Shown: piece by piece, positions 9,907 to 24,478 of the stretch
How positions within the stretch are numbered: the stretch's first letter is position 1
Layout: every line of letters begins with the position of its first letter
NCBI RefSeq assembly: GCF_013141825.1
Contig: NZ_RZNH01000049.1
Span: forward strand, 1-36,828
Direction of reading: 5' to 3'
Length of the DNA: 36,828 nucleotides
DNA from: Marinifilum caeruleilacunae
Lineage (GTDB): Bacteria > Bacteroidota > Bacteroidia > Bacteroidales > Marinifilaceae
Program-made: the position numbers and the translations under genes
The notes under the pieces: generated by a model
Told to the model about the DNA's origin: nothing
The model's database searches: none
The model's input: the letters and a program-made list of their open reading frames with translations, nothing else

Positions 9907-9938
9907 CAAATTAAGATGATGCAACTCAAAACTTATCG

Positions 9939-11177: not shown

Positions 11178-12371
11178 CTATCTCTTCTTTAATCGACAAA
11201 TTGCCAAAATTGGATTATCACCCTCTTTTACATTTGACATTTTATCAAACCAGTGTTTAGTTTGGGGATTTAATTTTTCTTGAACTGTTTTAGTTTCTTC
11301 CATATCCAAACATAAATCCATAGCATTGATAACTGAGATCATAAAACCATTCTGACTAAGCTCCGATCGAATATTTAAGCAGCGATGACTGATCAAGTCA
11401 TCATACACAAAAGGAACAGCATACTTTTGGGTTACTTGATTATCGAAACTATGAAGATAAATAGAGTTCAAATCGTCTTCGATCCAAGACTTCTTAAAAA
11501 CCATTAAATAATTATCAGAATGTATAATATTTATTTTTTGATAGGGGGATGCATTTCTTTCAAACTTATTAAAATCTCCATTATAATATCCAACCTGCTT
11601 TGTAACAGGCAATAATTCATTTCCAAGATTAAATATAAACGCTGGTTTTTTACGTTTATCATTGATAGACCATATTGTATCACTTAAATAATTATTCACC
11701 AATAAAGAAGAGTCACTTCTTTGAAAGTAAGTATCATAAGAATCCTTCCAGGTAAATCTGTCTCGTCCTTTAAGAAAAGTTTCGAATTTAGAACTTGCAA
11801 TTAACTGGGCATCCTGATTAAAAAATTTAATGGCCCCTTCGCATCTATCATACCAAGCTATCTGGTTTTTTTCATCAATCGAAAAATAGGCGAGTAAAGC
11901 ATCAAGTTTTTTTTCTTCCAGGAATTCACCACTCAAATTGTACTTAATTATAGACCTTTTCCCTGACGAAGCAATATAAATAGTATCTCCTTTTATTTGA
12001 AAATCCAGTACATAAATGTACTCTCCAGGCCCTTTCCCATTTTTACCTATTTGTTTCACAAATGATCCATCCATTTTAAATAAAAGCAACCTTCTCAAAT
12101 CAGAGATTAGAATCAATGTATCATTCATTTCCATTTGATACACTCTTCTTAACAATGATTTTTTGTTTGTTTCTAAGCTTACAAAATTCACTTCTGTGGA
12201 TACCTTAGACAGATTTAAGGTATCTTTTCCGTTATCTGGAAGATTTACATGGTAAGGAAACTCAACTTTGGTATTTTTCTCTTCATGTAATTTTTCAGTT
12301 TTACTTTTCGAAGAGCTCTGTGTGCAGGAGAAAATTCCCAGTAACAGCAATAAAATTATTAACCTATTCAT
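11178..12371 (-). CDS. 6-bladed beta-propeller lipoprotein (fourth propeller)
   Basis: 397 residues from the ATG at 12371; the longer frame would need a TTG start. A signal peptide ends in the lipobox IFSC with Cys16. The body is strand-rich and carries GKNGKGPGEY at about 109-118, the hallmark loop of the Bacteroidota 6-bladed beta-propeller/BF3164-like lipoproteins, and is expected to sit on the membrane or cell surface. It follows the signal peptidase gene at 12488 after a 116-bp gap. That gap contains the leader element GGTGGAGCAAGGCAAAAA (minus strand, 12425-12445) also seen upstream of two peptide genes, so it may have its own promoter. It may bind a peptide or other ligand. The function is not known. 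Confidence 0.8.
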   Translation of the reverse strand: MNRLIILLLLLGIFSCTQSSSKSKTEKLHEEKNTKVEFPYHVNLPDNGKDTLNLSKVSTEVNFVSLETNKKSLLRRVYQMEMNDTLILISDLRRLLLFKMDGSFVKQIGKNGKGPGEYIYVLDFQIKGDTIYIASSGKRSIIKYNLSGEFLEEKKLDALLAYFSIDEKNQIAWYDRCEGAIKFFNQDAQLIASSKFETFLKGRDRFTWKDSYDTYFQRSDSSLLVNNYLSDTIWSINDKRKKPAFIFNLGNELLPVTKQVGYYNGDFNKFERNASPYQKINIIHSDNYLMVFKKSWIEDDLNSIYLHSFDNQVTQKYAVPFVYDDLISHRCLNIRSELSQNGFMISVINAMDLCLDMEETKTVQEKLNPQTKHWFDKMSNVKEGDNPILAICRLKKR

Positions 12372-12424
12372 TTGATACAATTATTTAAATGAAAGAAAAA
12401 TATTTTCCTTTTACATTATTTTGT

Positions 12425-12445
12425 TTTTGCCTTGCTCCACCTTTC
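12425..12445 (-). promoter_or_regulatory. Conserved leader element, copy 1 (GGTGGAGCAAGGCAAAAA)
   Basis: On the minus strand the bases read GAAAGGTGGAGCAAGGCAAAA, 54 bases upstream of the propeller start. Related GGAGGT..CAAGG sequences occur at 15640-15657 and 20613-20641, upstream of two secreted-peptide genes. It may be part of a shared 5' leader or an operator. The role is inferred only from recurrence. Confidence 0.4.
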
Positions 12446-12487
12446 TAAAAAAACACAAGTTTTTAAAATATAATCATGTAAATGTAC

Positions 12488-13477
12488 TCACTGGTTAGCA
12501 CTCCGTTTTTTTTTAAAAGGAAGTTTTTTATTTAATGAAGAAAGAACATATTTTGCTTTACCAATAAGTAACTCCTCAGGTATAAGTCCAAAATGTCTTG
12601 AATCTATTGATTTTGATCTATTATCACCCAAAAGGAAAAAGTAATCTTTTTTAAATGTATAAGTTTGAATGAACTCACCATTATCATATACTCTACCGTC
12701 CATATAATAAACCTTTTCAATCTCGTATTTATTTATTAAATCACAATAAAAAGATGCATTTTCCTTGGAAAACTTTATTTTCATGTTCTTTCCTGGAATA
12801 ATAAGATTCTTGTATGCTTTTAATTTGTTTTGCCCTAACTCATTATATCTAAACCATCTATTTACCCTTTTAAAATTTGGCTTCTTTAAATCTTTGCCAC
12901 TAATAATAGTGCTATGTATTATAGAATCACCCATTTTTCTGGTTCCACCGGTTAAATGATTACGAGTAATATACTTTGATACCGATTCATTATAATATTC
13001 AATATTAAAATCAAAATGAAGATTGTTAGAATAAAACCTTTCCTCTTCATTACAATACCAAACATTATTAATACATAAAGTATCCCCAGGTATTCCAATA
13101 CAACGCTTTATTAAAACTGACTTCTCTTCAATATCTTGAAAGACGAGAATATCACCACTAACAACAGATTTAAAACTTTTAGTTCTGTAATAATCCCAAC
13201 GTTCTTTATTTATATATGCTTTTAGTTCCTTAGAAAACATCAACAACACATTACTCCAGGGAATATCTGAAATTGAATTAGGTAATTTAGAACCTAATGA
13301 AATTTTTTCTACCAACACATAATCTCCTTCTTTAATGGTAGCATGCATTGAGTTAGAAGGCACATAGAAAATTTCACATACAAATAATCTTAGTAAGATT
13401 ATGAGTATAAACCCAGGTAGAAAACATAAAATTAATTTCTTTGCTAGGCTCGATTTTTTTTTCTTAATAACTCTCAC
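12488..13477 (-). CDS. Signal peptidase I paralog (cassette 3)
   Basis: 329 residues, starting at GTG (13477) and overlapping the upstream gene by 14 bases, which suggests translational coupling. It is a type I signal peptidase (S26): one N-terminal helix at about 14-33, the catalytic Ser43 in VPSNSMHATI, the general-base Lys124 in LIKRCIGIPGD, and box E GDNRSKSIDSRHFGLI at about 284-299. Roughly 150 residues lie between boxes D and E, so the non-catalytic cap domain is large, as in other Bacteroidota enzymes. The housekeeping lepB need not be here. Its place at the end of a peptide/propeller/thioredoxin-like operon suggests a dedicated processing role. A sister copy lies at 21450-22370. Confidence 0.9.
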   Translation of the reverse strand: MRVIKKKKSSLAKKLILCFLPGFILIILLRLFVCEIFYVPSNSMHATIKEGDYVLVEKISLGSKLPNSISDIPWSNVLLMFSKELKAYINKERWDYYRTKSFKSVVSGDILVFQDIEEKSVLIKRCIGIPGDTLCINNVWYCNEEERFYSNNLHFDFNIEYYNESVSKYITRNHLTGGTRKMGDSIIHSTIISGKDLKKPNFKRVNRWFRYNELGQNKLKAYKNLIIPGKNMKIKFSKENASFYCDLINKYEIEKVYYMDGRVYDNGEFIQTYTFKKDYFFLLGDNRSKSIDSRHFGLIPEELLIGKAKYVLSSLNKKLPFKKKRSANQ

Positions 13478-14012
13478 ATTCTAATTCTTTTCGCATCTCT
13501 TGCATATATAAGTCTAGTATTTTCTCATATTTCATTGGATTACCTATTAAAACAATTTTCTTATCAATTAATAAGAACGAATGAAACATACTATTGCTAT
13601 GCAGATTATTCTGTCTTATAAATTTTTTTTGAGGATCCTTAAATATTGGAAAAGGTATTTTGTTCTTATTCATAAAATTTTCCAAAGACCAATAAGAATC
13701 TGCCCCTACATAAAAGCAAAAGCTCACCTCCTCACACATTTGATGTGTTTTAATAAAATTTCCCCATTTCAATATATCTTCGGCACACTTGCTGCAATTA
13801 CCATCAATAAAGGCTACAACAGCAACAGTGTAATCCATAAAATATTCATCAATTTCAAAGTTCTTAGGATAAAATATCTCTAATGAATCAGGCAGAACCA
13901 ATTCTTTTCCAACAAAAGATTTCACTACTTCACTGATGTTATTTTGACCAGTGTTTTCTTTGCAACCAATTAAAAAAAGTAATATCAATAATATTAGAGT
14001 TATATTTTTCAT
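13464..14012 (-). CDS. Thioredoxin-like CxxC lipoprotein (cassette 3)
   Basis: 182 residues. The signal peptide ends in the lipobox LIGC (Cys17). After a VVAFIDGNCSKC strand-loop (Cys73-x-x-Cys76) comes EDILKW, then a helix and a C-terminal strand pair containing FLLIDKKIVLIGNPMKYEKI near 145-165. The layout matches a shortened thioredoxin/TlpA fold, but the loop is G-N-C-x-x-C rather than WCxxC. The two other cassettes have the same GxCxxC...W pattern. A redox role on secreted peptides is an inference. It lies 32 bp after the propeller gene and overlaps the signal peptidase gene. Confidence 0.7.
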   Translation of the reverse strand: MKNITLILLILLFLIGCKENTGQNNISEVVKSFVGKELVLPDSLEIFYPKNFEIDEYFMDYTVAVVAFIDGNCSKCAEDILKWGNFIKTHQMCEEVSFCFYVGADSYWSLENFMNKNKIPFPIFKDPQKKFIRQNNLHSNSMFHSFLLIDKKIVLIGNPMKYEKILDLYMQEMRKELECESY

Positions 14013-14044
14013 ATTAATAACTTCTGTTTTTTACTCGATCTTCT

Positions 14045-15091
14045 CTAAATATCAAGTTCATATTTTATCAGGAACAATTCATCGCTAAGTCCAATTCCAA
14101 TTATGGACTTGCTATCTTTGTCATAGGCAATACTATTAAGGCCAATATCCAGTTTAAACCTTTTTATAGGCTTCCCATTCCAATCAAATACTAAAATGTT
14201 ATCAGCAACAAAAGGATTAGACATGTATTCCTTTAAAGTTTTTTCTGTATAAAGAGCAAAAATATATTCATCCGATGCTTCTAAACAGCAATATCCCATA
14301 ATACTCTCTTTTCTCTTTACCACTCGGTTTTTAGACATTAGAAAATCAGGTAATCGATAGTGGTATTTTTTTATTTCTTGAATACTATCATGTAAGATTT
14401 CGTTAATTTCAAGTATTTCTGAACAGTTTGTTGCAAAAACAAACCTATTTGAACCTTCCTTCACTTTTAAGAATCCCTGAAATAACCTTCCTTTTTGTCG
14501 TGATTCTAAATTTTGACCTTTTTGTAAACTAGGGAATGCACCATGATTTCCTATAAGTACACCTTCTGAGTTAAATATTGCATACATGCCATGACTAAAT
14601 GAACCTGTTCCTATAAAATAATTTTTTGTTCTCTTAACATGATAACAAGACCCATCATCGATTTTAAATTCTCTAGTTTTAACAGGTACAAAGCTTGTGT
14701 CTTGAAATAGGTTCTTAACTGTTATGGTATTCACTTTTTTCGGAACGCGTGTAAAAATATCTATAGATTTATTATGTTCGCTTCTATCAATCGAAATTGC
14801 ACGTGATAACTCTTTAGGCCCTCTACCTTTTTTAATAGATGCCCCTAAATAATTACCATTCTTTTTTGAGAATACATCAAGATAATACTCACTGTTTTTA
14901 TTCATTATAAGAATTAGCGAGTCTATTATCTGAATCGAAATAGGATTTCCAATTACCTTTCCTTCTATTGGCAATATATTCCCATTGATGATATCTGCCT
15001 TATGAAACAACTCTAATGGATTCGTGACTTTCTTTTCCTTGCAACCTGTTAGTATCGCAATTACTCCAAGTACAATTAAACATATTCTCAT
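14045..15091 (-). CDS. BF3164-like / 6-bladed beta-propeller lipoprotein (cassette 3)
   Basis: 348 residues. A signal peptide with lipobox LTGC places the lipidated Cys at 17. KKGRGPKELSRA at about 88-98 is the G-R-G-P loop shared by all four propellers in the window. The remaining sequence alternates strands ending in aspartate- or glycine-containing turns. I judge it to be of the TolB-like/BF3164-like type. It lies 125 bp downstream of the peptide gene, separated by a perfect 10-bp stem-loop (15185-15207), and 32 bp upstream of the thioredoxin-like gene. A peptide-binding or surface-display role is inferred. Confidence 0.8.
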   Translation of the reverse strand: MRICLIVLGVIAILTGCKEKKVTNPLELFHKADIINGNILPIEGKVIGNPISIQIIDSLILIMNKNSEYYLDVFSKKNGNYLGASIKKGRGPKELSRAISIDRSEHNKSIDIFTRVPKKVNTITVKNLFQDTSFVPVKTREFKIDDGSCYHVKRTKNYFIGTGSFSHGMYAIFNSEGVLIGNHGAFPSLQKGQNLESRQKGRLFQGFLKVKEGSNRFVFATNCSEILEINEILHDSIQEIKKYHYRLPDFLMSKNRVVKRKESIMGYCCLEASDEYIFALYTEKTLKEYMSNPFVADNILVFDWNGKPIKRFKLDIGLNSIAYDKDSKSIIGIGLSDELFLIKYELDI

Positions 15092-15184
15092 ATTATCTGA
15101 TTTTACACTCTTATTAGTAACTCATTGTTTTCCCAACGCAAACAGTATCATTACAATTAATCTATATACACTATCTAACTTAAA

Positions 15185-15207
15185 TGCTAGGTGCATAGCA
15201 CCTAGCA
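15185..15207. repeat. Perfect 10-bp stem-loop between peptide and propeller genes
   Basis: TGCTAGGTGC (15185-15194), loop ATA, GCACCTAGCA (15198-15207). No strong T run follows on the minus strand, so it is more likely an mRNA-stability or partial-attenuation structure than a full terminator. Its GGTGC-ATA-GCACC heart resembles the small palindromes at 36578-36673. Confidence 0.75.
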
Positions 15208-15216
15208 AAGACTTTA

Positions 15217-15441
15217 TTAATCGACAAATTCACCGTCAATTTCGAAATCGCCGTAATCACAACAGTTTACAATACTGTTACAACATAAAAATCCACCATC
15301 ATCATCAGTAATTACACGACTTTGTGCTAAAGCATCAATATTATCAATAACAAGACCACTTTCTGTCTGATTTGCATTATATGTGAATAAAAAGCTAAAG
15401 CAAGCTAGTCCAATAACCGATAAAAATATTTTTTTCTTCAT
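15217..15441 (-). CDS. NVEALA-family secreted peptide precursor (cassette 3)
   Basis: 74 residues. It begins MKKKIFLSVIGLACFSFLFT, a basic start and a hydrophobic export segment to about residue 20, followed by a spacer and NIDALA at 34-39, the motif that names the NVEALA family. The 35 residues after Ala39 are acidic and contain four cysteines as two pairs (53/54 and 60/61). Ala-Leu-Ala is also a canonical signal-peptidase I site, though it lies about 17 residues beyond the usual cleavage position. It is the first gene of cassette 3. The other peptides are at 20279-20524 and 24200-24415. No function is established for the family as far as I know. Confidence 0.8.
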   Translation of the reverse strand: MKKKIFLSVIGLACFSFLFTYNANQTESGLVIDNIDALAQSRVITDDDGGFLCCNSIVNCCDYGDFEIDGEFVD

Positions 15442-15520
15442 AATTATAAATTAATAGCAAAGAGTTACCTTTGCTGTATTACATTCAATTTTGCGCAGTA
15501 CATTTGTCTTTTTCTGTAAA

Positions 15521-15634
15521 TCAATTTGTACTGTGCTCTTTTTTTTCTGCTTTAACTGCCAGAACAGTTCCATTGGTATTGAGATGGCTCCCATGTAAAG
15601 TACAATTCTTAATTGTCTTTATTCTTTTTTTCAT
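15521..15634 (-). CDS. Possible 37-codon leader peptide upstream of cassette 3
   Basis: A minus-strand frame starting at ATG 15634, 5 bases after the conserved leader element, encodes a basic 37-residue peptide. Its middle, NGTVLAVKAE, aligns with NETVLPVIAG encoded by a frame upstream of the peptide gene at 24415, where no start codon is visible. The similarity may be a conserved RNA or operator sequence rather than protein. There is no signal peptide and no family match. Treat as a weak call. Confidence 0.3.
   Translation of the reverse strand: MKKRIKTIKNCTLHGSHLNTNGTVLAVKAEKKEHSTN
15553..15575. promoter_or_regulatory. Conserved dyad element, copy 1 (AACTGCCAGAACAGTT)
   Basis: The 23 bases match 24456-24478 at 21 positions. 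The core AACTG-N6-CAGTT is a dyad that could be a hairpin or a protein-binding site. A partial ACTGTTCT copy lies at 20563-20570. All three lie within about 135 bp upstream of a peptide gene. Confidence 0.45.
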
Positions 15635-15639
15635 CTTAC

Positions 15640-15657
15640 TTTTGCCTTGCACCTCCT
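15640..15657 (-). promoter_or_regulatory. Conserved leader element, copy 2 (AGGAGGTGCAAGGCAAAA)
   Basis: On the minus strand this reads AGGAGGTGCAAGGCAAAA, followed by GTAAGATG. Its relatives are at 12425-12445 and 20613-20641. The GGAGG word resembles an anti-16S site, which is unusual in this phylum, but it is 16 bases from the nearest ATG. Confidence 0.4.
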
Positions 15658-15756
15658 CTTTTGTATTATATAAGCTTTTAATAACTTCATTTTATAATCT
15701 TGCACGCACAGGCAGACCCATTTTACTTACATAATAAATATGGGATCCCCTGGCTT

Positions 15757-15885
15757 TTATAAGTAAACTCTCACCTCTTTTCCATCAATAATCACCACGA
15801 TGTACTCCCTTTCCTCACCCCCTTTTATTTGACACAGTTCTTCCAAATTTAATTGATCAAATTCTATCAGTTCTTTTAGCATCAT
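15757..15885 (-). CDS. 42-aa precursor peptide with a double-glycine leader
   Basis: A frame too short for standard gene finding, starting at two consecutive ATGs (15885, 15882). The N-terminal 23 residues end in LNLEELCQIKGG. Counting back from the second glycine this gives Leu(-12), Glu(-8), Leu(-7), Ile(-4), Gly(-2), Gly(-1), the full consensus of double-glycine leaders cut by C39-peptidase ABC exporters. The 19-residue core that follows is charged and then hydrophobic (EEREYIVVIIDGKEVRVYL) with no cysteine. No C39 exporter or modification enzyme is in the window. It lies on the same strand upstream of the cassette 3 peptide. It could be a bacteriocin-like or signalling peptide. Confidence 0.55.
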   Translation of the reverse strand: MMLKELIEFDQLNLEELCQIKGGEEREYIVVIIDGKEVRVYL

Positions 15886-16230
15886 TACGTTTTTATTTAA
15901 GTATTACAGTAGTTTAACTCACATAAAACTATTGATCATTAAATATTGAAACGAATAGCTAAGTCACTACTCATTAGTAGTTATCTAAGTAAATTTTTAA
16001 TGAAATTCGATCTTCAACCAGTCAATCGGAAATGTATTTTGCAGAATTTGTGTGCTTGAATTTTTCAGCAAGCTTACTTCGCATTGTTAATCAACTACCT
16101 AAGTAACACTAGAAATTATTGCAATTCATAAAAACCTCATCCATACACTTCGCAACAAGCTGTTTCTATGCACATTAGAAAAATATAGTTAAGTTTCTAA
16201 TTACTCGATTAGATTACACTAATCATTCGA

Positions 16231-16250
16231 TTGGATTTTATTGGATTTTA
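16231..16250. repeat. Tandem 10-bp repeat TTGGATTTTA x2 upstream of the kinase
   Basis: Two adjacent identical 10-mers, preceded by ATTCGATTGG-like words at about 16226. They lie some 45 bp upstream of the kinase -7 box, a plausible position for a response-regulator site. The function is not shown. Confidence 0.6.
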
Positions 16251-16272
16251 CAATTAGATCAAACACGAATAC

Positions 16273-16300
16273 TTTGCTTTGGTGGAGTTATTTAGATTTG
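16273..16300 (+). promoter_or_regulatory. Promoter of the histidine kinase operon (TTTG-N16-TAGATTTG)
   Basis: TTTG at 16273-16276 and TAGATTTG at 16293-16300 match the two boxes of Bacteroidota housekeeping promoters, with a slightly short 16-base spacer. The kinase start codon is 46 bases downstream. Confidence 0.5.
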
Positions 16301-16345
16301 ATCTGTAAAACATAGTTTTAATGAAAAAAAGATTACTTTTAACAT

Positions 16346-17722
16346 ATGAAAAATGTTTTTCTCAAAAGAATAGGTGTCTTAATTCTGTTGATTCTATCTA
16401 TCCTTATTTTCTCCCAAGTACTATGGTTACAGGAGCAAATAAAGAAAGAGAAGGATGCCTTTGTATCAAGATTGGAAGAGCGTTTAAGTAGTGTCATTCA
16501 TTTTCATGCCCTAAAAGGATATAGCCCAAAAAATCAGGACAAAACAGATACAACCACAATAAACATTGATGAGAGTCAGAGAAAATCGGATCATGATAAT
16601 TCTCGCGAAATAGCTCGATACGATATTAATACCAGTAAATATTCGAAGGACTTCTCATTATTTAAAGCCATTGAGGCAACTTTTACCAATAAAAGCCTGG
16701 AGCAAGGGAAAATTAAGTTAGAGGTGATTGATTCTCTTTTTCAAAACAATTTCTCTGAAATCGACATCATCTGTTGCTATAAAATGGAACTTCTTAAAAA
16801 TGAACACACAATTGACAGTTTATTTAAAAGTGAAAATGATTTTAGAGAATTAAAAAACGATTTAAATCAAATTCACTTTTCACTTGGAACTACCAATACA
16901 TATGCTTTTCGGTTCTCCTTTAAACTACACAGTTTTCCTTTCTTACAACAAATGGTATACACCATAAGTGTGTCTGGAATCGCAGTTATTCTGGTTGCTA
17001 TTTTTATGATCTGGTTACTATGGGCGCTGCAAGAAAGAATAGATCGATTGCAGTGGCGTGAGCAGGCCGTAAGAGGTATTGTACACGATCTTAAATCGCC
17101 TCTATCATTTGTATATACATTCTTAGATTATATGGCCAGCAAAGAGCAACAAGCTACGGTTAAAAAGCAAGTTGAAAATGCAAGTACCAATATATCCAAG
17201 CTGTCTGGTAAAATGGACCTGATTTTGTCTCTATTTGGGAATCAAAATCAAAAAATGCTAATCTCTCCCTCTGATATAAACTTCATGCATGTTTGCAATG
17301 AAATTTTATCTGAATTGAGAGTCGTATATCAAAACAAACAAATAGATTGCAAACTGGATTTTGATCAAGATTTAGTCCTTGCTGTAGATCCATTTTATTT
17401 TGAAGCTGTAGTACGAAACCTAATGGATAATGCCTTTAAATATTCTGACTCTACTCCCAAATTGGTAATTGAAGCTAGAAAAGAAAAATCAAAATTACAT
17501 TTGTATTTTACCGACTGCGGTTATGGGATTTCACCAATAGATCAGAAAAAGGTTTTTCGCGAATATTACAGGGCAAGTTCAACAATAAAAGGTCATGGAA
17601 TTGGCTTATCTTTTAGTATGAAAATCGTAAAATCACATAGGGGACACATTACATTGAGCAGCGATACAGGCAAAGGAAGTACATTTTGTATTATTTTACC
17701 GTCCGAAACAATTGTTACATAA
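16346..17722 (+). CDS. Membrane sensor histidine kinase
   Basis: 458 residues. Transmembrane helices at about 9-28 and 203-227 enclose a periplasmic sensor domain of about 170 residues with no recognised fold. The cytoplasmic part has an H-box GIVHDLKSPLSF (His247), an N-box VVRNLMDNAFKYS (Asn358/Asn362), G1 DCGYGIS (390-395) and G2 GHGIGLSFS (416-424), so the kinase core is complete. It is followed after 9 bp by its response regulator. It is divergent from cassette 3 and convergent with cassette 2, which suggests that it regulates the peptide cassettes or senses their product. Confidence 0.92.
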   Translation: MKNVFLKRIGVLILLILSILIFSQVLWLQEQIKKEKDAFVSRLEERLSSVIHFHALKGYSPKNQDKTDTTTINIDESQRKSDHDNSREIARYDINTSKYSKDFSLFKAIEATFTNKSLEQGKIKLEVIDSLFQNNFSEIDIICCYKMELLKNEHTIDSLFKSENDFRELKNDLNQIHFSLGTTNTYAFRFSFKLHSFPFLQQMVYTISVSGIAVILVAIFMIWLLWALQERIDRLQWREQAVRGIVHDLKSPLSFVYTFLDYMASKEQQATVKKQVENASTNISKLSGKMDLILSLFGNQNQKMLISPSDINFMHVCNEILSELRVVYQNKQIDCKLDFDQDLVLAVDPFYFEAVVRNLMDNAFKYSDSTPKLVIEARKEKSKLHLYFTDCGYGISPIDQKKVFREYYRASSTIKGHGIGLSFSMKIVKSHRGHITLSSDTGKGSTFCIILPSETIVT

Positions 17723-17731
17723 TATTAGGAA

Positions 17732-18415
17732 ATGAAAAAACTGCAAATACTTTTTGTTGATGATGATATCAACCTTGGAAATCTTATAAGTAGTGTTCTT
17801 GAAACAGATTATAATTGCCAGGTTCATTTTCAAAATACAATGATTGGCATTGAATATATCATTAAGGACCTTAAACCAGATATTATCATTTTAGATGTTG
17901 AAATAGGGACCGTAAACAGCATATCAAAAGCCAAAGAGATTGTAGAAAATCATCCACAAATTCCGCTATTATTTATTTCCTCGCACACCGATGATGAATT
18001 AATCACAAAGGGAATCGGTATAGGTGCATATGCATATATTCCCAAACCCTTATCAATTCCTTTATTGGTTACCTACATTAAACGTTTTACTTCCGAATCA
18101 CAGCAAAATAAGTTTATCGAATTAGCCAGGTATACCTTAAACTTAAACTCAAGTGAATTGCATTTTGATAGTGTATTTGTAAAAAAGCTTAGCCCCTCCG
18201 AAAAAGTTGTTCTTGAACTTTTGATGCGACAACCCAATAAAATTGTCAAGAAAGAACAAGTAATTGAAAAACTTTGCACCCAATCTTTAGAAACTCCAGG
18301 CATGGCAAGCCTTCATAATATTATTTCAAAAATACGTGAGTTGCTTAAATTGCAAAATACGATAGAAATTGGAACCATTAGAGGGGTAGGCTATATTTTA
18401 AAATGCGAGGAATAA
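17732..18415 (+). CDS. OmpR-family response regulator
   Basis: 227 residues. The receiver domain has the acidic pocket Asp10-Asp12, phospho-acceptor Asp55 in IIILDVEIG, Ser83/84 and Lys105 in YIPKPLS. The C-terminal winged-helix domain (about 130-225) has LSPSEKVVLELLMRQPNKIV and a final IRGVGYILK, typical of OmpR/PhoB DNA-binding domains. It is co-transcribed with the kinase (9-bp gap) and is probably activated by it. Candidate targets are the repeats in 15886-16345 and the elements upstream of the peptide genes. Confidence 0.92.
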   Translation: MKKLQILFVDDDINLGNLISSVLETDYNCQVHFQNTMIGIEYIIKDLKPDIIILDVEIGTVNSISKAKEIVENHPQIPLLFISSHTDDELITKGIGIGAYAYIPKPLSIPLLVTYIKRFTSESQQNKFIELARYTLNLNSSELHFDSVFVKKLSPSEKVVLELLMRQPNKIVKKEQVIEKLCTQSLETPGMASLHNIISKIRELLKLQNTIEIGTIRGVGYILKCEE

Positions 18416-18497
18416 GCATTTGATGTAAGATCGTAAGCATCTTTACCAATTATTTGTTATGGATTTTGAATTGAAAGCATCATTATCCACCCCTGTG

Positions 18498-19028
18498 TTA
18501 CTCTTGTAAAAGTTTCCTAAATATCCCTTTCATACTTTCATTACTCCACGGTTTTCCAACCATTATTATTCTATTTTCATTATCAATTAATAAAGAGGCA
18601 TCCATTATCCACTTTGGCACATTCATATTTTTAACAATATATTTATAATCAGGATCCATTATTACGTAATATTTATTTTCAACCTGTTCAATTTCCTGAA
18701 TTTTGGATATCAGAGATTCATAATTATCACCCCTGACAATAAAGAGTACAGTATAATTCTTGGGTGTTCCTATTACTTCAATATTGTTTTGCCAATCGAT
18801 AAATTCCTCATAACACGACTCACATCCGTTTAGCAGGTATACAATTGAAATGTATTTATATTGTTGTCGGAAATCTTCAAAATTTAGAATAGTATCTTTA
18901 TGGTAAACATTCTTAAACATTTTCAAATGCAAAGGCTGCATAAGAACGTCGCGAATTTCTCTCTCACGTTTTGACAAACATGATACGCAAACAATCACAA
19001 TTAAACATGTGAGTACAATATATCTCAT
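18498..19028 (-). CDS. Thioredoxin-like CxxC lipoprotein (cassette 2)
   Basis: 176 residues. The signal peptide ends with CVSC (lipid Cys17). VYLLNGCESCYEEFIDW carries Cys69-x-x-Cys72 after a strand, then a helix and a C-terminal ASLLIDNENRIIMVGKPW strand pair. This is the same architecture as the proteins at 13464 and 22382, a thioredoxin/TlpA-like fold with G-C-x-x-C in place of WCxxC. It is the last gene of cassette 2, 22 bp after the propeller. This cassette has no signal peptidase gene, and the response regulator converges on it 82 bp away. The redox function is inferred from fold and motif only. Confidence 0.7.
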   Translation of the reverse strand: MRYIVLTCLIVIVCVSCLSKREREIRDVLMQPLHLKMFKNVYHKDTILNFEDFRQQYKYISIVYLLNGCESCYEEFIDWQNNIEVIGTPKNYTVLFIVRGDNYESLISKIQEIEQVENKYYVIMDPDYKYIVKNMNVPKWIMDASLLIDNENRIIMVGKPWSNESMKGIFRKLLQE

Positions 19029-19050
19029 AGCTTTCTACATAAAGTATGAT

Positions 19051-20106
19051 TTATATTTTGAGATAAAACCACCCTAAAGGATTGATCCTATTATCAAAAT
19101 AAGCAATAAACCTTTCATTATCTTCATCTACACAAAAAGCACTAAACTCATAACCTACATCAATAGTTTTGATGTAATTCCCTTCCATATCAAAAACAAT
19201 TAACTTTGAAGGCGAAATTGAATCCAAGTCTCCATCCTTGGACTTCAAAATTCCTTTACCGCCAATATAGGAAGCCAGTATATAATTCTTATAGATTGTC
19301 ACATTCATAAAAAATTTTATTCCTTTTATTTCTTTTGCATTCCATTTAGAGCCAAAAACATTGCACCTCAAATTTCCATTTAAATCACATATTGTTAACA
19401 AATCCACAAAATTAAAGCACGAAACATATACATTATTCTTTACAGATAATGCAAAGTCCGAATAAGATTCTCTTCCTCTTATCTCTGGGAAATTATATCC
19501 ATATTCCTCAATTTTATTGGTATAAATATTTTGCTTCGTAGTTACTAAATCCATAGAGTGAGTACTTGTTGGCTTAACAGATCTACCAATAGAAATACTG
19601 TCGTTAATAAACTCATATTTAATTTGAAACAGTTCATTATCTAACATCAGTTTTCGGGATGGTTTAAATTTTTTATTGTTTAGAACACTATCCATGGGAA
19701 ATTTCCAACGTACCATTTTACCATAATCATCAACAAAAATTTCTTTGGTCTCAAAGGCACATCTGGCTTCTCCCAAACGAGATATTTCTCCGGGTCCTCG
19801 GCCAAGAAAACCGCTGCTGCTCACATATTCCAGATTATTTTTATTAAAAAAGTGAATTCCTTTCTCTCCTTTTGGAGAAAGCTCATTCACAACCAGCAAG
19901 GAGTCATAAATCAACATACTGCAATATTCAAACATTAGTTCGCTTTCAATATCTGTCACTTTATCTTTAACAGAAACTGTTCTATTCTCTGTTTCCTTAA
20001 ATGTTTTAGTATGTTTAGAATTGCTATTATTGCATGCAAACACTATAAACGAAACGAGAATAATTACCAGATTTCTTATTTCTATTCTTCTATGCGGTAA
20101 AGTCAT
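19051..20106 (-). CDS. 6-bladed beta-propeller lipoprotein (cassette 2)
   Basis: 351 residues from the ATG at 20106; a frame three codons longer would need TTG. After a basic N-terminus the hydrophobic segment ends at FAC (lipid Cys25). GFLGRGPGEISRLGEA at about 99-114 is the propeller-family loop. The rest alternates strands, ending in DEDNERFIAYFDNRINPLGW. It lies 172 bp downstream of the cassette 2 peptide and 22 bp upstream of the thioredoxin-like gene. It is expected to be anchored in a membrane facing the periplasm or cell surface. The ligand is unknown. Confidence 0.8.
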   Translation of the reverse strand: MTLPHRRIEIRNLVIILVSFIVFACNNSNSKHTKTFKETENRTVSVKDKVTDIESELMFEYCSMLIYDSLLVVNELSPKGEKGIHFFNKNNLEYVSSSGFLGRGPGEISRLGEARCAFETKEIFVDDYGKMVRWKFPMDSVLNNKKFKPSRKLMLDNELFQIKYEFINDSISIGRSVKPTSTHSMDLVTTKQNIYTNKIEEYGYNFPEIRGRESYSDFALSVKNNVYVSCFNFVDLLTICDLNGNLRCNVFGSKWNAKEIKGIKFFMNVTIYKNYILASYIGGKGILKSKDGDLDSISPSKLIVFDMEGNYIKTIDVGYEFSAFCVDEDNERFIAYFDNRINPLGWFYLKI

Positions 20107-20172
20107 AAGTTTCAAACTTTTTTATTGTGATTTTATAATCATAAAATGAAGGACACTCAATTAAAAAAATCA

Positions 20173-20271
20173 GAAGGTTATCCAATAAAGATTTTAAATT
20201 GGGCTGTAACAGTAGAGATTTTTCCAACACATAACTCCCTAGAATAATTTTCAACTTCTTAGATAACCTTC
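20173..20271. repeat. Inverted repeat between peptide and propeller genes of cassette 2
   Basis: GAAGGTTATC (20173-20182) pairs with GATAACCTTC (20262-20271) across a 79-base loop. The loop holds a smaller CCAAT/ATTGG pairing. It sits directly after the peptide stop codon in the transcript, as the stem-loops in the two other cassettes do. Confidence 0.55.
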
Positions 20272-20278
20272 AAACTAA

Positions 20279-20524
20279 TTAATATTCGGCAATAACATTA
20301 CCCCAATAAGCTTCCTCATAAGGCTTATAGCCGTAACAATAACACAAACCACGGGAGCTCCAACATCCATTTGGGCAGCCGAAACTTTGTTTAGCTAGTG
20401 CCTGTGTCATTACTTTGATATCATTTCTTGAGACATCTCCATTGGCAAGAACTATTTTTTTACTTATAAATATTGATACTGTAAATAGTACCACACTTGC
20501 GATAAAAACTATTTTTTTATTCAT
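20279..20524 (-). CDS. NVEALA-like secreted peptide precursor (cassette 2)
   Basis: 81 residues. Lys3-Lys4 is followed by a hydrophobic segment to about 20, a charged spacer, and VMTQALAK (ALA at 42-44), a diverged version of the NVEALA motif. The 37 residues after ALA hold four cysteines (50, 54, 61, 63) and are rich in Tyr, Trp and Gly. Membership rests on size, position and the ALA site rather than on close similarity, so it is less certain than for the other two peptides. It heads cassette 2. Upstream (20525-20645) are a leader element and an ACTGTTCT half-site. Confidence 0.65.
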   Translation of the reverse strand: MNKKIVFIASVVLFTVSIFISKKIVLANGDVSRNDIKVMTQALAKQSFGCPNGCWSSRGLCYCYGYKPYEEAYWGNVIAEY

Positions 20525-20562
20525 ATTTTTTTATTTTTATTTGTTCTTAAAAAAATCTAAAT

Positions 20563-20570
20563 ACTGTTCT
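20563..20570. promoter_or_regulatory. Partial dyad element, copy 3 (ACTGTTCT)
   Basis: ACTGTTCT equals the reverse complement of AGAACAGT, the right half of the dyad at 15553-15575 and 24456-24478. It lies 39 bases upstream of the cassette 2 peptide gene. An 8-base match is weak on its own. Confidence 0.25.
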
Positions 20571-20612
20571 ATCATTTCACAGCTCAGGCCTCATGGGCCT
20601 CCCTTACTTATT

Positions 20613-20641
20613 CTTTTATCCTTGCCACACAACCTCCTTTC
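20613..20641 (-). promoter_or_regulatory. Conserved leader element, copy 3 (AGGAGGTTGTGTGGCAAGG)
   Basis: On the minus strand GAAAGGAGGTTGTGTGGCAAGGATAAAAG resembles the elements at 12425-12445 and 15640-15657, with about five extra bases between GGAGGT and CAAGG. It lies about 90 bases upstream of the peptide start. Confidence 0.35.
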
Positions 20642-20725
20642 ATATTCTAATGAAGTCCGTACAGAAGCTATATATTGCTACTAGTAAGTAACAGTCTTCC
20701 GTTCTTTGTTATTTATTAATTATTT

Positions 20726-21145
20726 TCATCTTAATGTCTTTACGCTTCCTTTGATTCGTAATTCGACGAAGCCTGTGTTTGTATTGCAAAACACAGTGAT
20801 GGTTTTAAAGAAACGTCCTATATTTTTGGCTTCGTAGCTAATCTTTATTTCTGAAAATTTACCTGGCATTACAGGATGATTTGTCCATTTAGAATTTATA
20901 CAAGAACAACTGGTTTCCACATAGCGAATTAATAATGGAAAATTGCCAGTGTTTTTTAATTGAAAACAAACCTCCTTAATTTTTCCTTTTTGTATATTAC
21001 CCATATCAACTTCTGTTTTCGTAAAATCAACTTCTGTTGGTGGTGCGAATACCTGATCTACCGAGTCATCCTTGAGACAGAGCCATATAACTATTGAAAA
21101 TCCCATTACTATTAGTAAGCCTATATGATTTTTCTTCATAAACAT
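20726..21145 (-). CDS. DUF1573-family membrane-anchored protein
   Basis: 139 residues; an alternative start two codons later (21139) gives the same protein less Met-Phe. One N-terminal helix at about 8-24 anchors it. The rest has the DUF1573 pattern: VDFTKTEVDMGNIQKGK, FQLKNTGNFPLLI, ETSCSC (Cys80, Cys82), then a V/P-rich immunoglobulin-like strand ending in LRIKGSV. DUF1573 proteins are widespread small Ig-like periplasmic or surface proteins in Bacteroidota and often sit beside NVEALA/propeller genes. It lies between cassette 2 and the signal peptidase of cassette 1. Role unknown. Confidence 0.85.
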   Translation of the reverse strand: MFMKKNHIGLLIVMGFSIVIWLCLKDDSVDQVFAPPTEVDFTKTEVDMGNIQKGKIKEVCFQLKNTGNFPLLIRYVETSCSCINSKWTNHPVMPGKFSEIKISYEAKNIGRFFKTITVFCNTNTGFVELRIKGSVKTLR

Positions 21146-21201
21146 CTTAGAATAACCAGTTTAACCAAACTCATCCCTTTACAATAATTGATGTAATATA
21201 G

Positions 21202-21390
21202 TTTTCATATAATGATAAAACCAGCGATATCGACAAACAGGTATTCGGTATCGACGAACGATACCTGACCATCTATGAAGAGATTTTGGAAGGGTATAAA
21301 ATCGAAGTAGAAAGCTTGGTGCTGTGGCAGGAAAGAAAAGATTCTGTGGAAGAATATGAAGGAAGACTATGGAAATGCTTACTGTAGAAA
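21202..21390 (+). pseudogene. Gene fragment, left copy of a 120-bp direct repeat
   Basis: The plus-strand frame from 21202 to the TAG at 21388 reads KTSDIDKQVFGIDERYLTIY and then EEILEGYKIE with no usable start codon. Bases 21216-21334 recur almost exactly at 24636-24754 (exact offset 3420). I do not recognise the parent protein. Its lack of a start, its orientation opposite to all neighbours and its higher GC suggest a leftover of a lost or displaced gene. Confidence 0.6.
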
Positions 21391-21449
21391 TGTTCTGTTT
21401 GTGAAATGATGTTCCTTTTTGAAACAACAGTACCTTTTCTATTTATTTG

Positions 21450-22370
21450 TTACAACACATATAAAATCTTGCCTATAATATTTTTAAATGGAATCAAGCC
21501 AAAGGATCTTGAATCAATTGATTTTGATCGATTATCACCCAATAAGAAATAGTAATCATTTTCAAATACATATTTGTTATTAAGTCTCCCATCGATATAA
21601 ATATCATTCTCAGATTTTAATATTTCTTTCACCTCAAACTGGTTAATAATTTTTGCATAAAACTGGTAGTTTTGCATGTTGATGACAACAGTATCTCCTT
21701 TGGCAGGTATTTTAATTATAGATGCTGCATCCTCTACCCTGAGATTAAATTTTCGTTTAGGTGCTTTCAAGTATTTTAATATTCCAAGTGCTTTCAATTC
21801 ATTTACCTGTTTACCATTTAAGTGAACTTTATCAACCACCTCACCATCCAAATACTCACTATTACATTTAACAAAATTTACTTTAAAATAGGAAGTAAGA
21901 TCAAAATGTTTTGTTTCTACTATCCACTCATTAATCACTAATTTAGAAAAGTTTCTTTCCTGCTCATCACAATACCATATATCAGAAAAAATGGATATCC
22001 GTTCACCAGGAACACCAATACATCGCTTAGTTAAATAAAGAGTGTTTGAAGGGTCACGAAAAACGATTACATCACCTTTTACTGGTTTTGATCTTCCAGG
22101 CAATCTTTTTCCATTCCAGCGATCTTTTATGAGAAAATTTTCAAATTTAGTGGATATCAAAAGCAAAGTGTTCGCCCAGGGAATTTGATTTATGGATTGT
22201 GGCAACAAAGCACCATAACTTACTTTTTCAACTATTATATAACTTTTTTCATCTATGGAAGGACTCATAGATGCTGTTGGAACCCAGAATATTTCTACCA
22301 TAAAAATTCGTAGAAGAATTGTAAATAGTAGCATGATAAAAAAAGACAATATCAACTTTCTCACCTTCAT
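21450..22370 (-). CDS. Signal peptidase I paralog (cassette 1)
   Basis: 306 residues. One N-terminal helix at about 5-25, then FWVPTASMSPSI with catalytic Ser34, YLTKRCIGVPGE with general-base Lys115, and GDNRSKSIDSRSFGLIP at about 278-294. All type I signal peptidase boxes are present. About 160 residues separate boxes D and E. It is a clear paralog of the enzyme at 12488-13477, sharing the INQIPWANTLL-type segment and the box E sequence. It is the last gene of cassette 1, 11 bp after the thioredoxin-like gene. A dedicated role on the cassette peptides is inferred. Confidence 0.9.
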   Translation of the reverse strand: MKVRKLILSFFIMLLFTILLRIFMVEIFWVPTASMSPSIDEKSYIIVEKVSYGALLPQSINQIPWANTLLLISTKFENFLIKDRWNGKRLPGRSKPVKGDVIVFRDPSNTLYLTKRCIGVPGERISIFSDIWYCDEQERNFSKLVINEWIVETKHFDLTSYFKVNFVKCNSEYLDGEVVDKVHLNGKQVNELKALGILKYLKAPKRKFNLRVEDAASIIKIPAKGDTVVINMQNYQFYAKIINQFEVKEILKSENDIYIDGRLNNKYVFENDYYFLLGDNRSKSIDSRSFGLIPFKNIIGKILYVL

Positions 22371-22381
22371 CCTTTCAAATA

Positions 22382-22942
22382 CTACATTGAAGCATTAAGT
22401 ATTCTATTAATTGTTTTGATATATAGGTCTTTAATTGGTCCATTTTTCAGAGGGCTTCCAACTAAAATAATTTTATTATCACTAACTAAAAATGTATGAA
22501 ACATTTTGTCTTTTGGCAAGTTATTTATCTTTATAAACTTCATTTTAGGATCTTTAACAAAGAAAAATGTATATCCTTTGGTATCAAATAAATTTTCCAA
22601 CTCTTTGTATTCTGCAGCATGTATATGAAAGTAATAATTTACCTCATCTGAAAATTCATTTTGGGATATGAACTTGCTCCATTCATCGAATTCCATAATA
22701 CAATCATTACAAGCACCATTTATTATTGAGTAGATCTTTACATCAAAATCTAATGGTTTATACACATAGTGTTTGGGATAATATATCGAAAGAGAATCAA
22801 CATTCTTTATTTGACTGTCAATCATCCGGTGAATAGTCTCATTAATTGTGTTTTGTTTTTTACAAGCAATTGAAGTTAAGGCTATAATGATAGCAAATAA
22901 GAAGATAATGGGTGAAGTTGTTTTTTGATAATGATGAAGCAT
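22382..22942 (-). CDS. Thioredoxin-like CxxC lipoprotein (cassette 1)
   Basis: 186 residues from the ATG at 22942, which is 7 bases after the propeller stop; a longer frame from 22978 would need TTG and overlap the propeller. The signal peptide ends in SIAC (lipid Cys27). SIINGACNDCIMEFDEW gives Cys78-x-x-Cys81 in this numbering, with the G-x-C-x-x-C...W pattern of the sister proteins. A C-terminal TFLVSDNKIILVGSPL segment completes the thioredoxin-like fold. The YYPKHYVYKPLDFDVKIYSI segment parallels FYPKNFEIDEYFMDYTVAVV in the 13464 protein, so the two are clear paralogs. Confidence 0.7.
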   Translation of the reverse strand: MLHHYQKTTSPIIFLFAIIIALTSIACKKQNTINETIHRMIDSQIKNVDSLSIYYPKHYVYKPLDFDVKIYSIINGACNDCIMEFDEWSKFISQNEFSDEVNYYFHIHAAEYKELENLFDTKGYTFFFVKDPKMKFIKINNLPKDKMFHTFLVSDNKIILVGSPLKNGPIKDLYIKTINRILNASM

Positions 22943-22949
22943 ATTTTTC

Positions 22950-24104
22950 CTAATTGGTGTTGATTGAAAAAATCTCAAAACTCAATGAATTTAAATCCAG
23001 ATTCATATTGTCAGAATCACTAATGGACAAGTATAAACCTTCTTTACCTATAAAACTTTTCTCCCAATCATATATATTATTATCAAATACTTTATCAACA
23101 ATAATATTATAAGAACTATCCAACACCATTATTCCAAATGGATTGGGCTCATTATTAATAGCCATTAAATCATCATTCTTAGACACCTTTGTCTTACCCA
23201 ATTTGTAAAAACGATACAGGTAATTTCTGTGTGGATCCCAAAGTAACTTCGTGTATTCTGTACTCCGTATCCGATTGTAAAGATTTTGCTTAAAATCGTT
23301 GGTAAAACAATATTCTGTTAAAGCATTTATATTCTTACTTTTACATTCATATGACTTGAAAGTCTCAAAATCCTCAGTAAAATATATATTATGAGAACTT
23401 GCAAAGGCAATTACATATCCGTTTTTAAACTGTGATACAAAATTAAAATGCCTTTTTAATTTCAATTTTGAAGATTCATAAGGAATATGCATTCCTACCA
23501 ATTTATGTGTATGATTCTTAAAATTGTATTTTAAGGTGGTTTTATACTCCTTGAATTCACTAAGATTTTTTGTTGTCCAATTCCCCTCTAAATACATTGG
23601 CAAAAACATCTCATTTCCTTTTATGAAAATATGAGTATTATTATTATCTAATGTCCTGGGGTATTTTCGATTTTCACCATAATCAATTTCCGATATTTTA
23701 ACACCTTGGGAATTAACAACACCTAATTTAAACTTAAAGAATGGAGTTATTATGATAGAATCCTGATTTAGCACCTTAAAGCCACCCACACGGTCAAATC
23801 CATTAGGACCTTTTTCTGCGATTTTGATTTGTTCAATTAAACTCTGTTTTTCTAAGTCATAAACCAACAGATGATTTCTCTTATTTAAAAAGTAGAGCAA
23901 CTCCTTATTTTCATCGTTTATGAAACTGCTTATCTTGTATACTCTGGAGTCTATATTTATTGGAACGGGAAATTTTCTAATCGTATTATTGGATTCTAAA
24001 TCAAAGCCGGATTTATACATACATTTCTGTGCATCCTTCTTATTAATACAAGAAAAGCAATACAACAAAACCAAAACAGCAGGAATAAGAATATTTTTTT
24101 TCAT
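22950..24104 (-). CDS. 6-bladed beta-propeller lipoprotein (cassette 1)
   Basis: 384 residues. The signal peptide ends with CFSC (lipid Cys19). AEKGPNGFDRVGGFK at about 96-110 is a variant of the G-x-G-P-G loop in the other propellers. Repeated strand pairs with aromatic residues fill the rest, and FGIMVLDSSYNIIVDKVF near 326-343 is typical of a late propeller blade. It lies 95 bp after the cassette 1 peptide, with a stem-loop in the gap, and is followed 7 bp later by the thioredoxin-like gene. It is the most diverged of the four propellers. Ligand unknown. Confidence 0.75.
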   Translation of the reverse strand: MKKNILIPAVLVLLYCFSCINKKDAQKCMYKSGFDLESNNTIRKFPVPINIDSRVYKISSFINDENKELLYFLNKRNHLLVYDLEKQSLIEQIKIAEKGPNGFDRVGGFKVLNQDSIIITPFFKFKLGVVNSQGVKISEIDYGENRKYPRTLDNNNTHIFIKGNEMFLPMYLEGNWTTKNLSEFKEYKTTLKYNFKNHTHKLVGMHIPYESSKLKLKRHFNFVSQFKNGYVIAFASSHNIYFTEDFETFKSYECKSKNINALTEYCFTNDFKQNLYNRIRSTEYTKLLWDPHRNYLYRFYKLGKTKVSKNDDLMAINNEPNPFGIMVLDSSYNIIVDKVFDNNIYDWEKSFIGKEGLYLSISDSDNMNLDLNSLSFEIFSINTN

Positions 24105-24153
24105 TACTTAGGCCATATAATTTAAACAAATTAGCAATCAAATGATAAGCTAA

Positions 24154-24187
24154 GGAGAAGAATTACTATGAGTATATATCCTTCTCC
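24154..24187. repeat. Stem-loop between peptide and propeller genes of cassette 1
   Basis: GGAGAAG (24154-24160) pairs with CTTCTCC (24181-24187) around a 20-base loop, just after the peptide stop codon in the transcript. There is no clear T run. Confidence 0.55.
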
Positions 24188-24199
24188 ATGCTTTTAATT

Positions 24200-24415
24200 T
24201 TAATGGATATAGCAAACTGTTGAACCAGCAAATTCACAATCGCTACCACTCCAAAATTTATAATCATCAGAATCAAAATTTCCATGCGAAACCATTTTGG
24301 CCAAAGCAGCAGTATTATCTGCCTTCAAGGTATTGCCTTCCTTAAAAAGATTATAACTGTACAGAAAACCAAAACACGCAATTCCCGCTACTGATAAAAA
24401 AAATTTCTTTTTCAT
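24200..24415 (-). CDS. NVEALA-family secreted peptide precursor (cassette 1)
   Basis: 71 residues. It begins MKKKFFLSVAGIACFGFLYS, nearly the same export segment as the peptide at 15217, followed by a spacer and NTAALAK (ALA at 37-39, the same residue numbers as the other). The 32-residue C-terminal part is acidic and aromatic with two cysteines (60, 68). Only the leader and the ALA motif are conserved between the two peptides; the predicted mature parts are unrelated, as expected for variable effectors or signals. It heads cassette 1 and lies about 470 bp from the tRNA-Leu gene. Confidence 0.8.
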   Translation of the reverse strand: MKKKFFLSVAGIACFGFLYSYNLFKEGNTLKADNTAALAKMVSHGNFDSDDYKFWSGSDCEFAGSTVCYIH

Positions 24416-24455
24416 AATTTCAAAATTTAGAATTAAATTATATGATCTCCTGCTA

Positions 24456-24478
24456 TAACTGGCAGAACAGTTTCATTG
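24456..24478. promoter_or_regulatory. Conserved dyad element, copy 2 (AACTGGCAGAACAGTT)
   Basis: It matches 15553-15575 at 21 of 23 bases and keeps the AACTG-N6-CAGTT dyad. It lies 41-63 bases upstream of the peptide start codon. Confidence 0.45.

Follow-up and report, generated by a model that had tools for sequence, protein, structure and literature searches.

The window analysed here is a 36,828-nt stretch of Marinifilum caeruleilacunae (contig C162, NZ_RZNH01000049.1, of a 5.27-Mb genome in 202 contigs), and the system in question is a set of genes for small secreted peptides and their presumed helpers. Three peptide cassettes, all on the - strand, lie where a model reading the sequence alone (the original prediction) had placed them, each containing a peptide gene, a propeller lipoprotein gene and a gene for a CxxC thioredoxin-like (Trx) lipoprotein. 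After each peptide come a propeller-type lipoprotein of 348-384 aa and then a lipoprotein of 176-198 aa with one CxxC.

Cassette 1 starts with pep1 (24200-24415, -), a precursor whose leader ends in NTAALA and whose core has 2 Cys. It is followed on the same strand by prop1, a DUF4221 beta-propeller lipoprotein (22950-24104; PF13970, E=1.2e-24), trx1, a thioredoxin-like CxxC lipoprotein recognised by sequence and BLASTP (22382-22978), and sp1, a signal peptidase I (SPase I) paralog (21450-22370; PF10502, E=3e-33, and tree). Cassette 2 has a gene for a DUF1573 Ig-like protein (20726-21145, -; E=3e-28) and no SPase. Its peptide, pep2 (20279-20524, -), is a precursor of the CPNGC...CYCYG class with 4 Cys in the core, followed by prop2 (19051-20115, -), a propeller lipoprotein of the kind associated with this class, and by the CxxC lipoprotein trx2 (18498-19028, -; BLASTP). 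The TolB_like match of prop2 (26.4 bits) is under the cut-off of 29.2; its AlphaFold2 model (pLDDT 85) is an NHL-like propeller fold that aligns with the DUF4221 structure 3S9J. Cassette 3, also on the - strand, comprises pep3 (15217-15441), an NVEALA (PF14055) precursor with the leader end NIDALA and 4 Cys in its core, prop3, a TolB_like propeller lipoprotein (14045-15091; E=5e-24), the CxxC lipoprotein trx3 (13464-14012; AhpC-TSA 24.1 bits, under the cut-off of 26), sp3 (12488-13477; S26, E=4e-30, and tree) and finally prop4, a DUF5128 six-bladed propeller lipoprotein without a peptide of its own (11178-12380; E=1e-33). SPase I paralogs had been predicted to end cassettes 1 and 3. Both are S26 members, and sp1 does end cassette 1; the final gene of cassette 3 is prop4. 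Likewise, the assignment of the peptides to the NVEALA family held for pep3 (28.4 bits, cut-off 27) and failed for pep1 and pep2, which gave no match at E<=1.

The cassettes are related to different degrees by BLASTP (single-subject E values). The leaders of pep1 and pep3 are 55% identical over 40 aa (2e-13), sp1 and sp3 share 36% (1e-67), and trx1 matches trx3 (2e-35) and trx2 (3e-9). Meanwhile, prop2 matches prop3 (9e-6), prop1 is unlike the other window propellers (E>=0.18), and pep2 showed no similarity to pep1 or pep3.

Cassettes 2 and 3 are separated by a two-gene regulatory pair (16346-18415, +), a sensor histidine kinase (16346-17722, +; library match) and an OmpR-type response regulator (17732-18415, +; library match). 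An MFP-RND-TolC-RND pump (2107-11000, -) directly follows the cassettes on the same strand. It contains the RND periplasmic adaptor MFP (9939-11000; TIGR01730, 181.9 bits, cut-off 94.9), RND permease 2 (6837-9872; ACR_tran, E=8e-184), a TolC-like outer membrane factor (5272-6756; OEP, E=6e-28) and the divergent RND permease 1 (2107-5238; ACR_tran, E=7e-103). All three parts of a tripartite RND pump (adaptor, RND permease and outer membrane factor) are present; neither permease reaches any cut-off listed in NCBIfam. The original prediction did not name the pump as part of the system, nor the regulators with their peptide class, the parity of the core Cys or the match between cores and propellers.

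Co-occurrence of peptides, propellers and helper genes

A PF14055 search gave matches in 26 of 393 genomes sampled evenly across the order. Because PF14055 alone detects one of the three window peptides, a leader model, A1, was made from a training set that contains pep1, and this matched in 24 of the 57 genomes of the host's family (which by the kinship table used also includes G421 and G353). A1 fails on pep2, although the core class of pep2 has NVEALA leaders elsewhere. Eighty stretches were fetched; with two genus pieces excluded, four extensions merged and the window added, the set comprised 75 loci from 42 genomes with 137 peptides, and loci were found in Bacteroides, Parabacteroides, Odoribacter and Labilibaculum. 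Genomes G053, G417 and G424 have a match and stand outside the fetched set, as do further matches in fetched genomes (e.g. G255:C148, G255:C181, G074:C16, G074:C60 and G074:C99). Phylum-wide A1 matches outside the order (15 of 395 genomes) were rejected as partial and mostly lying in long frames; those spanning the whole leader came from G000, G165 and G105 only.

Genes were called by a simple open reading frame (ORF) script, and counts of the next gene skip unlabelled ORFs of <130 aa. The loci from which the class models derive are also those that they count; identical models and cut-offs were applied to 20 control loci (400 kb from 10 of the genomes, against 1,237 kb of peptide loci). The predicted co-occurrence within 6 kb was borne out to different extents: at this distance a propeller is present for 127 of the 137 peptides, a Trx/DUF1573 lipoprotein for 84, an SPase I for 30, and all three for 23 peptides at 16 loci. 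Anywhere in the fetched stretch, all three helpers occur at 21 of the 75 loci (17 of the 42 genomes); taken singly, the Trx/DUF1573 lipoprotein occurs at 44 loci and the SPase at 23. The Trx and DUF1573 models converge on the same 65 proteins, 16 of which are <150 aa. At five of the 75 loci there is no propeller, Trx, SPase, transglutaminase-like, Wzy_C or adaptor gene.

Of the 137 peptides, 94 have a propeller as their next gene (90 at <=300 bp; median gap 58 bp); the others are followed by a peptide (12), an unlabelled gene (21), a contig end (6) or another gene (4). When 12 of the 21 unlabelled genes were scanned with Pfam, five passed a propeller cut-off, two matched propellers weakly and five gave no match. 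No propeller, Trx/DUF1573 or SPase gene was found in the 20 control loci. Counted as proteins in the locus set versus the controls, there were 171 + 4 propellers versus 0, 65 Trx-DUF1573 versus 0, 25 SPase versus 0, 23 RND versus 0, 14 adaptors versus 0, 12 OEP versus 0, 26 Wzy_C-TPR versus 0, 27 transglutaminase-like versus 2, 3 MauE versus 0, 32 histidine kinases versus 4, 38 response regulators versus 8 and 6 ToxR-like versus 0. At the level of sequence, peptides and propellers demonstrably occur together, joined less constantly by Trx, SPase and pump genes.

The genomic setting of the window bears on whether this association is meaningful. A segment with both the RND pump and the cassettes (1851-24847) adjoins a tRNA-Leu gene and is missing at the same site in the sister species G427, in which the distance from the tRNA-Leu flank to the flank matching window 147-1850 is 1.72 kb, compared with 23.0 kb in the window. 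The segment was either gained in the window genome or lost in G427. Its two parts are unlike in GC, which per kb is 0.28-0.34 at 11-24 kb, 0.34-0.39 in the pump region below and 0.35-0.41 above 24 kb. The position by a tRNA gene, the empty site and the low GC of the cassettes would suit neighbours that are merely unrelated cargo of genomic islands at common hot spots. Such cargo would hardly place a propeller behind 94 of the peptides at so short a median gap in 42 genomes, nor leave 20 control loci free of propeller, SPase, Trx, Wzy_C and adaptor genes, and we consider this explanation very improbable.

Precursors, processing and propeller pairing

In the precursors, a hydrophobic segment at the N terminus and ~20 spacer residues precede an N[VI]EALA site, with which the ~42-residue leader ends; a short hypervariable core follows. 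Among the 128 of 137 peptides with a motif score >=4, position -1 is A in 101, G in 11, T in 9, S in 6 and K in 1, and -3 is A in 114, counts to be read with the fact that the motif search itself favours A/G/T/S-type letters at -3/-1. Nine peptides have no motif score of 4, and 15 had no recognisable motif when the cores were recut. Position +3 is E in 98 of the 127 unique cores. The cut-site letters fit the (-3,-1) rule of signal peptidase I, but the spacing is unusual: the distance from the hydrophobic segment to the cut site has a median of 21 residues (0 of 119 within 9), versus 3 in 16 ordinary signal peptides. A passage of PMC5837995 gives Q at +1 as a rule for Bacteroidetes signal peptidase I substrates; Q occupies +1 in 18 of 127 cores, window pep3 included. 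The precursors therefore do not look like ordinary Sec/SPase I substrates, which have Q at +1 and are cut next to the hydrophobic segment. Because the letters fit, the distance is unusual and Q is rare, they would be either extended substrates cut by the linked SPase or substrates of two successive cuts, the first near the hydrophobic segment and the second at NVEALA.

The linked SPases (n=25; 20 of 273-306 aa, five of 346-454 aa) keep a Ser/Lys dyad, with Ser in 24 of 24 and Lys in 25 of 25 at the alignment columns that we take to be catalytic. A tree, which carries no support values, put the LepB housekeeping enzymes (457-502 aa, one truncated) in one tight clade and all 25 linked SPases apart from it, most of these in one main group; the SPases of L124 and L132 grouped with another SPase. 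Dedicated processing of variable secreted peptides, as originally proposed, is well supported by gene anatomy.

Core Cys numbers are mostly 2, 4 or 6. Among the 127 unique cores, 106 have an even number, 19 an odd number and two no Cys; recut cores gave 101, 18 and 2, respectively, and similarity clusters 67 even and 13 odd (p=6e-10). Because the numbers are mostly even, core disulfides are likely, which agrees with the CxxC lipoproteins and with the MauE-type proteins of three loci. The CxxC is kept in 47 of 49 long Trx proteins, 13 of which have fusion length (>=240 aa); in L038 a DUF1573 domain is fused to the Trx lipoprotein. At L061:5503-6534, L085 and L122, MauE/DoxX-type membrane proteins stand next to the Trx lipoprotein and are perhaps the electron partner for disulfide formation.

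The mature parts proved variable, as had been expected: leaders are alike within a locus (0.50 vs 0.20) and cores barely so (0.06 vs 0.04). Where tandem peptides have no gene between them, their cores resemble each other (median 0.50 in 8 pairs, against 0.10 in 121 other same-locus pairs; p=2e-5). Core similarity tracks the downstream propeller, while leader similarity tracks the locus. The Mantel correlation of core with downstream propeller was r=0.53 over 101 pairs (null maximum 0.10), and 0 of 2000 within-locus shuffles reached it (mean 0.42, maximum 0.51); for leader and propeller r was 0.19. A scan starting from prop2-type propellers found a leader-model peptide directly upstream at 20 of 74 loci, four of them already in the earlier set. 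Seventeen of these 20 peptides, and 13 of the 16 among loci new to the analysis, are of the CPNGC class. The CPNGC peptides of L160, L162, L165 and L168 have leaders without the NVEALA motif; hence this core class is not bound to one leader type.

Locus L049 (G368:C6:17001-37000) carries an array of nine peptides whose leaders are closely similar and whose cores differ; a called propeller comes after eight of them. Five peptides have an extra protein of 194-215 aa ahead of the propeller (L037:7568-8152, L047:7196-7843, L047:10489-11082, L050:9116-9703 and L073), and the two of these proteins that were scanned had no Pfam match. Sequence searches of the PDB returned 4raa, a putative exported protein, for model A2 (7e-5) with two more entries at E 0.04-0.09, and no match for prop3.

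The lipoprotein surface-export signal, as given in a passage of PMC5080379, consists of acidic residues at +2..+6 from the lipid Cys. At least two such residues are found in 8% of 87 propellers and 4% of 27 Trx proteins, compared with 45% of 33 control lipoproteins, where counts cover only proteins with a recognised lipobox (161 propellers and 49 Trx proteins examined); the four window propellers all have fewer than two. Since they mostly have no acidic signal, both kinds of lipoprotein probably face the periplasm. Of the 175 propellers, 81 have no called peptide directly upstream, which would be expected if these were spare immunity genes.

Regulators and the RND pump

A divergent histidine kinase faces 26 of the 137 peptides and a ToxR-like membrane regulator faces five. 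A Cx6C core with exactly two Cys is present in 23 of the 26 kinase-facing peptides versus 7 of the 111 others; two of the remaining three have Cx6C plus extra Cys, and window pep3 alone differs. The table of Cx6C against divergent kinase (23/7/3/104) gives a Fisher p=6e-17, which is too small because the loci are related. The ToxR-linked peptides carry CxGxG[SD][IL][DE]C in five of five cases; one more such peptide, at L131, has no such gene called. An N-terminal sensor region, modelled on the first 230 residues, is common to 24 peptide-facing kinases, and four control kinases scored <0 bits; the window kinase matched weakly (25.8 bits, E=1e-8). An H-box pattern for the sensor domain was dropped, being present in two kinases only.

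These regulators, each facing its own core class, and the sensor region found in 24 kinases and in none of the four controls would also suit peptides that are all signals and never weapons, with propellers as partners in the periplasm that bind the peptide as a ligand, presenting it to the kinase or to other outputs. Against that view, 106 of 137 peptides have no such regulator adjoining; nine peptides with different cores in L049 and propeller arrays without peptides fit it poorly as well. We regard it as rather unlikely.

The window adaptor was searched against 21 genomes. The 121 matches were bimodal, with 25 at >=188 bits (20 genomes) and the next best at 93. Twenty-four of the 25 high scorers adjoin SPase, Wzy_C, transglutaminase-like, propeller, Trx or peptide genes, three of them propellers only (two in G444, one in G106:C5); for the 25th, G289:C7, the contig starts at the adaptor. 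Twenty of the 96 low-scoring adaptors were fetched and had 0 SPase, 0 Wzy_C, 0 Trx, one propeller and one partial transglutaminase-like gene beside them. Because the scores are bimodal and 24 of 25 high scorers lie by system genes, this particular RND pump goes with the system, and the adjoining pump (2107-11000) is on this evidence assigned to it.

Transglutaminase-like proteins occur at 21 of the 75 loci and Wzy_C/TPR (O-antigen-ligase-like) proteins at 26. Such envelope-type proteins, together with SPase, transglutaminase-like and pump genes standing without a called peptide at G106:C1, G074:C50 and G255:C130 (also Wzy_C), would agree with peptides that are retained as envelope components or as redox or stress reporters, the pump and the transglutaminase- and ligase-like proteins shaping the cell surface. 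Yet hypervariable cores that track propellers and not leaders would be unusual for structural parts, and the linked TolC-type pump suggests export. Hence we consider retention distinctly improbable.

Proposed system, known relatives and minor features

The window gene set, which recurs in other gut and marine bacteria, looks built to make, cut, fold, export and sense small variable disulfide-linked peptides, a function that we infer from its sequence. We give about even chances to a self-contained, induced system of a bacteriocin- or pheromone-like kind that secretes disulfide peptides and has cognate propellers, probably in the periplasm. Sec would insert the precursor in the inner membrane, where it serves as a tether; the Trx lipoprotein would form or correct the core disulfides in the periplasm; and the cognate propeller would bind the core for protection, chaperoning or both. 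Cleavage after NVEALA would fall to the linked SPase, and the RND pump would export the freed peptide from the cell via TolC. The kinase probably reads the Cx6C peptide as inducer, and the other, variable peptides are probably bacteriocin-like effectors, with propellers as cognate immunity proteins or partners.

Several observations weigh against this secretion system. Five locus kinases opposite either no called peptide or a ToxR-linked one score 21-109 bits on the sensor model, and four of them outscore the window kinase; pep3 falls outside the Cx6C class and is 904 bp away from that kinase, compared with -167 to 369 bp for the 25 others. Of the helpers, the SPase is the least regular, with 23 of 75 loci. 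In the tree, the window pair falls outside the main linked group, with two short paralogs that adjoin LepB elsewhere, and one SPase from outside the known loci falls within that group. A system-type adaptor was present at 11 of 75 loci as first fetched and at four more on extension, and low-scoring adaptors occur in peptide loci L036 and, as a 140-aa fragment, L132 (the L036 adaptor, 60 bits against the window adaptor, was in the class-model training set). The match behind the transglutaminase assignment is weak, at 19.7 bits against a cut-off of 23, and the scheme gives no role to the transglutaminase-like and ligase-like proteins, both absent from the window. Tight linkage alone could account for the core-propeller pairing and recent duplication for the similarity of tandem cores, and 54 of the 74 loci of the prop2 scan have no leader-model peptide directly upstream, some of them at a contig end. 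No product, activity or complex is on record for the system.

By gene anatomy the loci fit regulated class II bacteriocin or pheromone loci such as pneumococcal blp and plantaricin. Shared features are several short precursors with a common leader and different cores, a partner gene after each peptide, a histidine kinase and response regulator by one peptide, and spare partner genes in arrays. Those loci have leaders ending in Gly-Gly and a C39 ABC exporter, whereas here the site is of the SPase-type AxA and the genes are an SPase I paralog and an RND pump (no search aimed at C39 was made); the partner here is a 350-aa propeller lipoprotein. The Gly-Gly leader, the one defining feature tested, is absent from the peptides (-1 mostly A, -3 A as counted above). 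MdtABC-type RND pumps have two permeases, an adaptor and a TolC factor, as does the window pump; the window adaptor differs in that its clade is tied to peptide loci, and drug efflux is not implied. The NVEALA family PF14055 includes pep3, and other locus leaders match it; its model excludes the cores and partner genes, and the Pfam line gives no function. Bacteroidetocins are not known to be encoded with propellers, Trx lipoproteins, SPases or RND pumps.

A passage of PMC6671954 describes bacteroidetocins as Bacteroidetes peptide toxins related to class IIa bacteriocins; they are alike in being Bacteroidetes peptides and were set apart by description, not by sequence comparison. As far as its main text goes, a paper mining Bacteroidales for clusters of ribosomally synthesised and post-translationally modified peptides (PMC10352776) never mentions propeller, thioredoxin, signal peptidase or RND. 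No description of the system was recognised in the open-licence PMC literature, and print beyond that scope may differ. In B. thetaiotaomicron, BT0662 (O-antigen ligase) and BT0664 (six-bladed propeller), two locus numbers apart, are described as iron-responsive in a passage of PMC10434189, making them a possible handle on the system in that species.

Somewhat short of an even chance, in our estimate, is a broader proposal, namely an undescribed class of secreted Gram-negative peptides that are quorum-induced, cut at an unusual site by a linked SPase, RND-exported and each paired with a periplasmic propeller recognising its own core, with hypervariable disulfide cores swapped on conserved leaders in an organisation similar to that of conotoxins. 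If the secretion reading is right, Bacteroidales would possess a whole set of disulfide peptides for export together with their own inducer, an RND pump would serve as peptide exporter rather than drug pump, and the NVEALA peptides, TolB_like/DUF4221/DUF5128 propellers and DUF1573-Trx lipoproteins, all uncharacterised, would gain roles. The system is amenable to study in gut commensals.

Within the genus, A1 gave no match in any of the five other species, a result limited by its blindness to pep2 and by G429 being 80% complete. In G429 a pump 73-74% identical to that of the window lies on a 7.5-kb contig, and in G428 both flanks are on one contig, 40 kb apart. Scans with phage and defence libraries found nothing accounting for the genes; an SPase matched a phage family of unknown function (1e-22), and a Trx protein, a propeller and the kinase matched weakly. 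A 122-nt direct repeat, 95% identical, lies on either side of cassette 1 (21216-21337 and 24636-24757) and may mark its gain or duplication; that it is the remnant of a gene in the G427 empty site was rejected on comparison.

Between pep3 and the kinase, a 41-codon ORF (15757-15885, -) has a double-glycine-type leader (ELCQIKGG) and below-cut-off matches to Bacteroid_pep and ComC; no homologue was found among the small ORFs of the fetched loci. A 10-bp stem-loop with a terminator-like match lies between pep3 and prop3 (15185-15207, -) and is possibly an attenuator or processing site, in a region where six such sites were found against 4.9 expected. Finally, a 23-nt motif upstream of pep3 (15547-15569, -) is identical at 21 of 23 positions to a copy upstream of pep1 (24450-24472, -). 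The pattern, derived from both copies, matches only these two sites in the window and none in 100 shuffles, and the motif is a candidate regulator site or duplication trace.

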